Below, piece by piece: positions 5,657 through 46,125 of a stretch of 60,221 nucleotides of DNA. Every line of letters begins with the position of its first letter. Position 1 is the first letter of the stretch. Origin of the DNA: Adlercreutzia sp. ZJ473 (GTDB lineage: Bacteria > Actinomycetota > Coriobacteriia > Coriobacteriales > Eggerthellaceae); assembly GCF_013185065.1 (NCBI RefSeq), contig NZ_JAAVTO010000010.1, positions 1 through 60,221 on the forward strand. Direction: 5' to 3'. The notes beneath the pieces were generated by a model. It saw nothing but the letters and a program-made list of their open reading frames with translations. It did no database searches and was not told the origin of the DNA. The translations under genes were made by a program, and so were the position numbers.

Positions 5657-6646
5657 ATGGGCGCGGACGCCTGCGCCTCTGCCTGCGCCTCTGCCTGCGC
5701 CGCGGGCGCGGAGCGCGCCGGCGGCGTGCCCTTCGCGCTCGCCCCGGTGAACGTGGTGGCGGGCCACTACGGCGTGGGCAAGACGAACCTCGCGATCAAC
5801 CTGGCGATCGACGCCGCGCGGGCGGGGCATGACGTCACGCTCGTCGACCTCGACGTGGTGAACCCGTACTTCCGCTCGACCGAGTACCGCGGCGTGCTCG
5901 AGGAGGCGGGCGTCGACGTGGTGGCGCCCGTGTTCGCCGAGGCGGGGTCGAGCCTCGACGTGCCGTCCCTCACGGGCGCCGTCGTCCCCGCCGTCGAGCG
6001 CGCCTACGCCGACGCTGCTTTTGAGGATGCAGGGGGCGCCGCGGAGGGGCGGACGCGGAGCAGAGCTCAGTCGCTCGGACAGTCCTGCTCGCACGGAAGC
6101 GCCGCAGGCGCTTCCGGCTCGTGCGGAACTCGCTTGGTGAGCACCGCACCGCGTCCGCCCCTCCACCCCCAAGTCTCTGCGCCGTGCCGGGGCGGCGGAC
6201 GCGCCCGCATCGACGCCGCGCCGTCGCCCCGCACCGTCGTCATCATCGACGCGGGCGGCGACGACGCGGGCGCCATGGCGCTCGGCCGCTTCGCGCGCCA
6301 CGTGGCGGCGGGCCCCTACGCGCTGATCTACGTGGTGAACCGCTTCCGCAACCTGACGCAGGAGCCCGACGAGGCCCTCGAGGTGCTCGCCGAGATCGAG
6401 CGCGCGGCGCGCCTGCGCGCCACCGGCGCCGTGAGCAACGCGCACCTCAAGGCCGACACCACCGGCGAGGTGGTAGCGCGCGGCGCGGCGTTCGCGCAAG
6501 CGGTCGCCGACGCCGCAGGGCTTCCGCTCCTGTGCGTTACGGCGCCAAAAACGCTCACTCAGCCAGAATCCGACGAACTGTCATCGTTGCGAGGCGCCTT
6601 CAACCTGTATCCTGTTGAGCTGCGTGTGAAGACGCCCTGGGAATGA
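5657..6646 (+). CDS. P-loop ATPase/nucleotide-binding protein carrying an internal repeat element
   Basis: The N-terminal part has a Walker A motif in GHYGVGKTNLAINLA (about residues 35-50) and LVDLDVVNPYF, as in ParA/MinD-like or CobQ/CbiA-type ATPases. The C-terminal part resumes with VVIIDAGGDDAGAMALGRFA. Between them, about residues 120-195 are a low-complexity Ser/Gly/Ala/Arg stretch encoded by repeat copy 1 (6043-6164) and its flanks. The reading frame stays open through the element, so the protein may be made with an inserted linker or may be inactivated. The start is 1 bp after the synthetase stop. Its exact role is unknown. Confidence 0.75.
   Translation: MGADACASACASACAAGAERAGGVPFALAPVNVVAGHYGVGKTNLAINLAIDAARAGHDVTLVDLDVVNPYFRSTEYRGVLEEAGVDVVAPVFAEAGSSLDVPSLTGAVVPAVERAYADAAFEDAGGAAEGRTRSRAQSLGQSCSHGSAAGASGSCGTRLVSTAPRPPLHPQVSAPCRGGGRARIDAAPSPRTVVIIDAGGDDAGAMALGRFARHVAAGPYALIYVVNRFRNLTQEPDEALEVLAEIERAARLRATGAVSNAHLKADTTGEVVARGAAFAQAVADAAGLPLLCVTAPKTLTQPESDELSSLRGAFNLYPVELRVKTPWE
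6043..6164 (+). repeat. Dispersed structured repeat, copy 1 (inside the P-loop ATPase gene)
   Basis: The outer stem is a perfect 16-bp inverted repeat (6043-6058 with 6149-6164, GGAGGGGCGGACGCGG and its complement). Inside lie the shared core (GCTCA at 6065-6069 pairing with TGAGC at 6138-6142) and an inner hairpin GGAAGCGCC-GCA-GGCGCTTCC (6095-6115). The core is almost identical to copies at 36268 and 46002, while the outer stem sequence is specific to this copy. It lies within an open reading frame and keeps the frame open. Confidence 0.85.
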
Positions 6647-9402: not shown

Positions 9403-9953
9403 GCATGGACGAGCTGAAGGAGATCGGCCTGCGCATCCAGGGTCTGCGCGAGGCGTGCGACATGACGCCCGAGGAGATGGCGCGCGAGCTGGAAGTGAGC
9501 GTCGAGCAGTACCTGAGCTGGGAGGAGACGGGGGCTGACGTCCCCATCTCGGCCATCTACCACATGGCGCACGAGTTCGGCGTCGACCTCACCGAGATCC
9601 TCACGGGGACGGCGGCGAAGCTCGACACCTACCACGTGGTGCGCCGCGGGCAGGGCAAGGAAGTCGACCGCTACCCGGGCTACCACTACGACGACATGGC
9701 ATGGCGCTACTCCAACAAGATCATGCAGCCGCTCGTGGTGGTGCTCGACCCCTCTGACGAGCCGGCGAAGCTCGTCTCTCACCAGGGGCAGGAGTTCAAC
9801 TTCGTCATCGAGGGCTCCATCGTGGTGACCTTCGACGACAAGGAGATCGTGCTCGACGAGTGGGACAGCATCTACTTCAACCCCACGCACCCGCACGGCC
9901 AGCGCTGCCACGGCGACAAGACCGCGAAATTCATCACGATCATCGCCGAATAG
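9399..9953 (+). CDS. XRE-family transcriptional regulator with C-terminal cupin (copy 2)
   Basis: Paralogue of the gene at 3189: HTH in residues about 5-62 (IGLRIQGLREACDMTPEEMARELEVSVEQYLSWEE) and cupin in about 100-180 (LVSHQGQEFNFVIEGSIVVTF, DSIYFNPTHPHGQRC). The start is ATG at 9399, overlapping the gamma stop by 4 bp; ATG at 9405 is an alternative. Length 184 aa. Lying between the oxidoreductase and a second acyl-CoA synthetase, it is a candidate regulator of both (inference). Confidence 0.9.
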   Translation: MSMDELKEIGLRIQGLREACDMTPEEMARELEVSVEQYLSWEETGADVPISAIYHMAHEFGVDLTEILTGTAAKLDTYHVVRRGQGKEVDRYPGYHYDDMAWRYSNKIMQPLVVVLDPSDEPAKLVSHQGQEFNFVIEGSIVVTFDDKEIVLDEWDSIYFNPTHPHGQRCHGDKTAKFITIIAE

Positions 9954-9978
9954 GCAGGTAGAGATCTGCTGTCGTTCG

Positions 9979-10094
9979 CGTCGGGTCGCGGGGCAATGCT
10001 CAGCCGCTCAGACAGTCCTGCTCGCGCGAAATGCTTAGCAAGCATTTCGGCTCGTGCGGAACTCGCTTGGTGAGCACAGCCCCGCGCCCCGGCG
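9979..10094 (+). repeat. Dispersed structured repeat, copy 2 (diverged)
   Basis: The outer arms 9979-9994 and 10079-10094 pair at 15 of 16 positions (one as G-T). The core keeps GCTCAGCCGCTCAGACAGTC and GGCTCGTGCGGAACTCGCTT nearly as in the other copies. The inner hairpin has a completely different sequence, CGAAATGCTT-AGC-AAGCATTTCG (10027-10049), yet pairs perfectly over 10 bp. GCACG of the other copies is GCGCG here, opposite CGTGC, which still pairs as RNA through G-U. It fills the 193-bp gap between the regulator and the second synthetase. Confidence 0.85.
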
Positions 10095-10146
10095 CTGCGT
10101 TCTCTCAGTTGAAACCACATGCTTTGAAGGAGCCTAGAGAAATCCC

Positions 10147-34413: not shown

Positions 34414-36222
<1,809 letters not shown>

Positions 36223-36267: not shown

Positions 36268-36391
36268 GGCGCGGCGGGAGCCCGGGCAGAGCTCAGTCGC
36301 TCGGACAGTCCTGCTCGCACGGAAGCGCCGCCGGCGCTTCCGGCTCGTGCGGAACTCGCTTGGTGAGCACCGCCCGGGCTCCCGCCGCGCC
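36268..36391 (+). repeat. Dispersed structured repeat, copy 3
   Basis: Between lepA and the convergent reductase gene. Outer stem: perfect 20-bp inverted repeat GGCGCGGCGGGAGCCCGGGC (36268-36287) with its complement (36372-36391). A 3x3 internal gap AGA/ACC, then GCTCA/TGAGC, the invariant core and the inner hairpin GGAAGCGCC-GCC-GGCGCTTCC (36321-36341). The core differs from copy 4 only in the hairpin loop. Confidence 0.88.
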
Positions 36392-46001: not shown

Positions 46002-46125
46002 GGCGCCTCGGGAGCCCGGGCGGTGCTCACCAAGCGAGTTCCGCACGAGCCGGAAGCGCCAGCGGCGCTTCCGTGCGAGCAGGACTGTCCGAGCGACTGA
46101 GCTCTGCCCGGGCTCCCGAGGCGCC
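46002..46125 (-). repeat. Dispersed structured repeat, copy 4 (inverted)
   Basis: Lies between mtaB and phoH on the opposite strand to the other copies. Outer stem: perfect 20-bp inverted repeat GGCGCCTCGGGAGCCCGGGC (46002-46021) with its complement (46106-46125). Inner hairpin at 46052-46072. Relative to copy 3 the outer stem has GG changed to CT on one side and CC to AG on the other, so pairing is preserved. The core is otherwise the same as copy 3 apart from the hairpin loop. Confidence 0.88.

Follow-up and report, generated by a model that had tools for sequence, protein, structure and literature searches.

Class-wide palindromic repeats with site-specific arms, lying in frame within genes and at gene 3' ends in Coriobacteriia

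How a conserved protein gene comes to hold a long palindrome between its catalytic motifs, and whether it reads through it, is the question raised by an open reading frame of Adlercreutzia sp. ZJ473, located in a stretch of 60,221 nucleotides (contig NZ_JAAVTO010000010.1, positions 1 to 60,221; hereafter the window). A first-pass annotation made from sequence alone had proposed that a 122-bp repeat lies between the Walker A and VVIIDAGG halves of a P-loop ATPase gene without closing its frame, that it contributes about 75 extra residues, and that it could be an in-frame palindromic insertion analogous to the palindromic elements (RPE) of Rickettsia. The placement was confirmed by the ORF, the PF01656 match, the fold and a covariance model. 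The frame is open from end to end, across the element included, and its product matches PF01656 (CbiA/MinD/ParA; E=1e-8, residues 34-245), with Walker A (GHYGVGKTN) encoded 5' of the element and VVIIDAGGDD encoded 3' of it (Table 1). In the nearest orthologue, that of Adlercreutzia sp. ZJ176 (G001; contig NZ_JAAKEC010000002.1), the element is absent, and the span from PYF to DAGGDD is 65 aa, against 131 aa in the window; the same span is 59 aa in G002 and 53-69 aa in most of about 40 further relatives. The net gain relative to G001 is 66 codons, close to the 75 first proposed. A low-complexity segment shared by repeat-free orthologues would have refuted that annotation; on alignment the segment was absent from G001 and G002. 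Inserts of this kind, in frame and free of stops, also occur in hisH in about 20 species. Because the spans of the orthologues are shorter, the insert is genuine and in frame, and is not an ancient low-complexity segment of the family. The ATPase gene of G062 carries the repeat at the identical place, in a different reading frame. It could be argued that the gene is decayed or unexpressed and its open frame a chance product of high GC, and long spurious frames are indeed common in the window. However, the catalytic motifs on either side of the insert are intact and in one frame, the protein is 93% identical to that of G001, and the insert region comprises a whole number of codons, which together all but exclude this explanation. 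AlphaFold2 gave a confident fold except for the insert, which is predicted to be a disordered loop because pLDDT falls below 50 there (residues 137-166 and 168-181). We infer that translation includes the insert, as a disordered loop that the protein tolerates; the disorder is a model prediction, and we found no evidence of expression.

Table 1. Features of the ATPase locus and of the other element copies in the window
Feature	Position	Strand	Evidence
MinD/CobQ/ParA-type P-loop ATPase ORF with insert, 329 aa	5657..6646	+	ORF list, PF01656, alignment with 25 orthologues
Stretch unlike the empty G001 allele: element with additional sequence beside it, net +66 codons	6016..6237 (limits approximate)	+	Orthologue comparison
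Complete palindromic element (left arm, conserved head, right arm)	6043..6164	+	Fold z=-7.4, covariance model 128 bits, family in own genome
Left arm, sequence private to the ATPase copy	6043..6061	+	18/19 pairs with right arm
Conserved 82-nt head, common to copies in the genome	6063..6144	+	Alignment of copies
Right arm, complementary to left, private to the ATPase copy	6146..6164	+	Arm pairing
Second copy, 24 nt past the stop of the HTH/cupin gene ending at 9953	9977..10096	+	Covariance model
Third copy, 48 nt past the stop of the LepA-like gene ending at 36222	36270..36389	+	Covariance model
Fourth copy, between two + strand genes, opposite in orientation to both	46004..46123	-	Covariance model

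The element itself folds far better than expected by chance (-98.9 kcal/mol, where 200 shuffles averaged -68.7 and none did as well; z=-7.4), and the covariance model matches it at 6044-6163 (128 bits, E=3e-28). Across the family, a conserved head of about 80 nt, whose internal-loop nucleotides are almost invariant, is held inside a near-perfect outer stem with a median length of 22 bp counted from the head edge (mostly 19-27). The arms differ in sequence from site to site, and yet the two arms of any one copy remain complementary. The mean stem score is 14.5 for arms of the same copy and 4.0 for arms taken from different copies. Across 74 copies representing the family as a whole, double changes occur at 29 of 40 stem pairs. 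Both sides are altered in 615 cells, where shuffling gives 191 on average (0 of 500 shuffles reach 615), and the signal is lost when the partner arm is slid; compensatory changes are found in the outer and the apical helices alike. Different paralogues have near-identical heads and unrelated arms, from which it follows that arms are not transmitted together with the head. The covariance model spans 120 nt, a short form of 93 nt lacks the apical hairpin, and other variants have different lower loops. Among these variants, subfamilies represented by L299, L300, L323-L328 and L331-L334 keep the upper head (CAGTCCTG..GTGCGGAA) and differ in their lower loops, and at L222 in Adlercreutzia hattorii (G007), where a longer form reaches up to 146 nt, partial copies occur in tandem or nested, with repeated GCTGCGGAACTCGCTTGGTGAG... 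units. At one common position in the Collinsella group (L348, L362, L363), the stems of close species differ in the middle third, in both arms together, with matching outer and inner parts, as if a block of the stem had been replaced in concert.

That the ATPase element is one copy of a repeat, as first annotated, also held. The window has four copies, this one included, and the genome (G000) has 19 full copies by BLAST and at least 28 matches to covariance model R1, a minimum, since scoring was limited to 150 candidates. Beyond what had been annotated, the repeat proved to be class-wide and its outer arms site-specific yet complementary. Matches were found in 70 of 138 Eggerthellaceae species (25 of 48 genera) and in 127 of 396 Coriobacteriia genomes sampled, including other families of the order, in which the upper head is retained and the outer stems reach 25-30 bp. 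Nothing in the window matched Rfam at gathering score, and at E<=10 there were only weak chance matches to miRNA families, none credible. The phage and viral records searched gave no match, and among plasmid records a single Collinsella record had the element, leaving no clear plasmid carrier. The family is not a product of chance, but a set of hairpins dispersed across the class Coriobacteriia. The flank search also brought to light another dispersed repeat, about 160 bp long, at L132 and about 25 places in G000 (for example G000:C89:6008-6166 and C65:7208-7357), its copies 75-87% identical and marked by CACCGATAACG/CGTTGTCGGTG motifs.

The positions of the copies relative to genes are far from uniform. 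In G052 and G065, 29 of the 30 intergenic copies closely follow the 3' end of a gene on the same strand, mostly 5-58 nt past its stop codon and with the head in one orientation, and the intragenic copies of these genomes comprise six sense and five antisense (hisH copy L194 being re-assigned by hand). Genes in G052, G065 and others were called by a simple codon-usage gene caller, and some hisH and ATPase copies were mis-called as intergenic. A further 98 copies from many genera, which are not a random sample because the best-scoring matches were chosen, comprised 40 that are 3' of a same-strand gene, 41 within ORFs (25 in sense and 16 in antisense orientation) and 17 that fitted neither group, of which at least five are hisH or ATPase copies that the gene caller missed. 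Overall, ORFs contain about 40% of the classified copies, in frame and pointing either way. In the window, the fourth copy is the only one opposed to both neighbouring genes, an exception to the 3'-end rule. Many copies occupy orthologous positions across species with nearly invariant heads, and the presence of a copy at a given site varies between close species. In several genera (L015, L124, L178, L185, L190, L221) a copy lies in what we take to be the gap between pheS and pheT, from recognition of the PheS and PheT termini by eye and without a family search. Orientation relative to the replichore is also biased (87:42, p=9e-5); this is explained well enough by the orientation of the upstream gene, which intergenic copies follow in 29 of 30 cases, so replication-strand targeting was set aside and we make no claim of targeting to single-stranded DNA.

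These positions bear on two rival explanations. The first, which is possible and is the main and serious rival, is that the element is a structured cis-acting RNA, the head binding a protein or ligand, and that it acts at mRNA 3' ends as a terminator, stabiliser or processing site. Covariation of the outer stem would then reflect ordinary RNA selection, and the intragenic copies would be by-products or act in the mRNA. The first-pass annotation had itself offered an RNA fold acting in the mRNA as its alternative, and this is not excluded. In favour of this view, the compensatory changes run throughout the outer and apical helices and the internal-loop nucleotides are invariant, such that covarying helices with conserved loop nucleotides, the pattern required of a structured RNA, are both present. 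The placement and single orientation of the 29 of 30 intergenic copies in two genomes also favour it, as do the 40 of 57 non-intragenic copies elsewhere that follow a same-strand gene (several of the others being mis-called hisH or ATPase copies), the Collinsella copy located, by independent annotation, a few nucleotides past manA, and the conservation of copy positions between species. Against it, the expected enrichment of G.U over A.C pairs is not seen on the sense strand of 3' copies (3 G.U, 9 A.C), intragenic copies occur in both orientations, near-identical heads have unrelated arms among paralogues, no regular T-tract past the stem was seen by eye, and presence at the hisH site has turned over repeatedly. 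The second rival has the head landing in palindromes that were already there, for instance transcription terminators, the arms being old host sequence. Intergenic copies do sit where terminators do, just past stop codons, and their arms are GC-rich. However, coding copies have arms of about 20 bp, the linkers of element-free sister genes are too short to have held such a palindrome, the pheS-pheT copies lie between apparent genes of one operon, and most right arms are not followed by a T-run. Terminator palindromes as targets are rejected for the coding copies, being largely refuted there by the short linkers, and we consider this explanation as a whole very unlikely.

The hisH gene provides a natural experiment on insertion into coding sequence. 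In about 20 species HisH is split by an insert at model position ~124, and those inserts that could be read whole are all in frame and free of stops; the head is in sense in some genera and antisense in others, and the arms covary between genera (for example G052, G038 and G054). A hisH tree built without the insert shows 13 changes of presence, at least nine of them forced by well-supported branches, with a few inserts scored as filled that no longer have a recognisable head. The insert has therefore been gained or lost at one loop at least nine times, and repeated insertion at this loop of a histidine-pathway enzyme has left filled and empty alleles that form a natural series. The choice of frame is also restricted. 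Among 48 intragenic copies, 32 use just two frames, QSLGQSCSHGS.. in sense and HQASSARAG.. in antisense, both encoding hydrophilic peptides rich in Ser, Gly and Ala, and a third fully open frame encoding a basic and hydrophobic peptide is used once. Favoured hydrophilic frames and lengths in multiples of three are indirect evidence that the inserts are translated. It could instead be proposed that the insert is left untranslated through ribosome bypass or RNA excision, as with T4 gene 60 or byp elements, giving a normal protein. The hairpin in mRNA would be extremely stable (-98.9 kcal/mol), and the copies use several frames without conserving any one peptide, all as that proposal would have it. 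However, neither bypass nor excision needs whole hisH inserts that are uniformly in frame and stop-free, and the frames used favour hydrophilic peptides, so that this possibility appears very unlikely.

On balance we lean, without great confidence, towards seeing the element as one of a class-wide family of short DNA hairpins, mobile or selfish in nature, whose behaviour resembles that of the Rickettsia palindromic elements. In this model only the head would travel between sites, and the arms would be created or kept perfect at the DNA level. Fold-back copying could turn one flank into an inverted second arm, or hairpin-templated correction could keep the two arms matched. Copies would persist where they are harmless, at gene 3' ends and in surface loops in frames that encode hydrophilic peptides. 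The mismatches in the arms have some bearing on this. Counted in the orientation of the core and beyond a conserved A.C position, there are about 66 A.C/C.A mismatches against 41 G.T, one-sided G.U changes are almost absent, and A.C is in mild excess overall. Such pairing, nearly perfect and with few G.U intermediates, is more readily explained by copying at the DNA level than by selection on RNA, although the numbers are small and stem positions 4-6 carry conserved mismatches. In three comparisons (the window ATPase with G001, L016 with G001, and G061 with G089) the empty allele is similar to the gene-5' arm, with nothing like the other arm. That one flank is the template of the second arm is consequently no more than a possibility, weakly supported by these three suggestive cases. 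Eight sites that differ between G000 and G001 were examined, five filled only in G000 and three only in G001, and none provided a clean empty site, the flanks being replaced or hypervariable at most of them; nor was a target duplication found in these comparisons, the alleles being too divergent to show or exclude one. Both absences are due to the hypervariable DNA around the copies. A Y1 transposase (RAYT, PF01797) is absent from G000, where control searches were positive, and no mobilising enzyme for the element was identified. Without a clean empty site or a mobilising enzyme, the mobile, flank-copying model is an inference. Moreover, the orthologous positions, the invariant heads and the recurrence at pheS-pheT and hisH would also fit a selected function, and neutral drift by itself does not account for the bias in orientation among intergenic copies (29 of 30 in G052 and G065). 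A bolder reading, to which we would give rather less credence than to its negation, is that the hairpin is mobile as a head only, and that it, or fold-back repair by the host, copies the flank inverted. If true, each insertion would build its own near-perfect stem of about 22 bp, and the element would have spread class-wide in gut bacteria, and into working protein genes as well, by making inverted target duplications in place of direct ones. The spread or upkeep of hairpins with site-specific complementary arms, whether by inverted flank copying, hairpin-templated correction or selection on structure, is a question that can be tested.

Several known repeat systems resemble the Coriobacteriia element in part. 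REP and BIME sequences of the GTAG and CGTC superfamilies are palindromic, occur in many copies, show compensatory stem changes, and in some cases lie within longer palindromes (PMC3733652). The Coriobacteriia element is likewise palindromic and multi-copy with compensatory stem changes. In contrast, REPs are 20-40 bp long with a GTAG or CGTC tag and a RAYT (Y1), and the present element is 93-146 nt with a different head consensus of about 80 nt. Identity with REP/BIME is ruled out by size, by tag and by the lack of a Y1 transposase in G000; Eggerthella, Gordonibacter and Slackia are not mentioned in the REP paper (PMC3733652). MITEs such as ERIC, Correia/NEMIS and RUP are about 100-200 bp, give long stem-loop transcripts and are in some cases fused in frame to genes (PMC2229807), and in size class, long stem-loop and in-frame gene fusions the Coriobacteriia element is similar. 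MITEs have fixed terminal inverted repeats for a transposase and usually a target duplication; here there is no fixed terminal repeat, and no duplication was found in alleles too divergent to show or exclude one. No such repeat has been described for Eggerthellaceae or the class in the open-access literature that we searched. As subscription papers were not covered, we regard as only provisionally new the combination of in-frame and 3'-end palindromic repeats with site-specific arms, the kind itself being already known. The best-known cases of palindromes that code for protein come from Rickettsia and Wolbachia. The RPE of Rickettsia are elements of 105-146 bp lying in frame in genes, and the gmk product with its insert is made and active (PMC2229807), with further in-frame cases since described (PMC10969869). 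Like the RPE, the Coriobacteriia element is a dispersed palindrome of about 100-150 bp, found between genes and in frame in conserved protein genes (the ATPase and hisH). Unlike them, it has arms that differ at every site (14.5 against 4.0), whereas RPE are described as having terminal inverted repeats of about 12 bp, and it is found in a different bacterial class, in both orientations and several frames, with many copies just 3' of genes. The analogy with RPE first proposed for the ATPase insert is thus supported as a functional one only, and this is not the Rickettsia element. The likeness is one of working alike and not of membership, one RPE feature that could be tested, the fixed terminal repeats, being absent; it is drawn by analogy, RPE sequences not having been compared. 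What is known from Rickettsia is thus paralleled by a separate and abundant palindrome family in common gut Actinomycetota.
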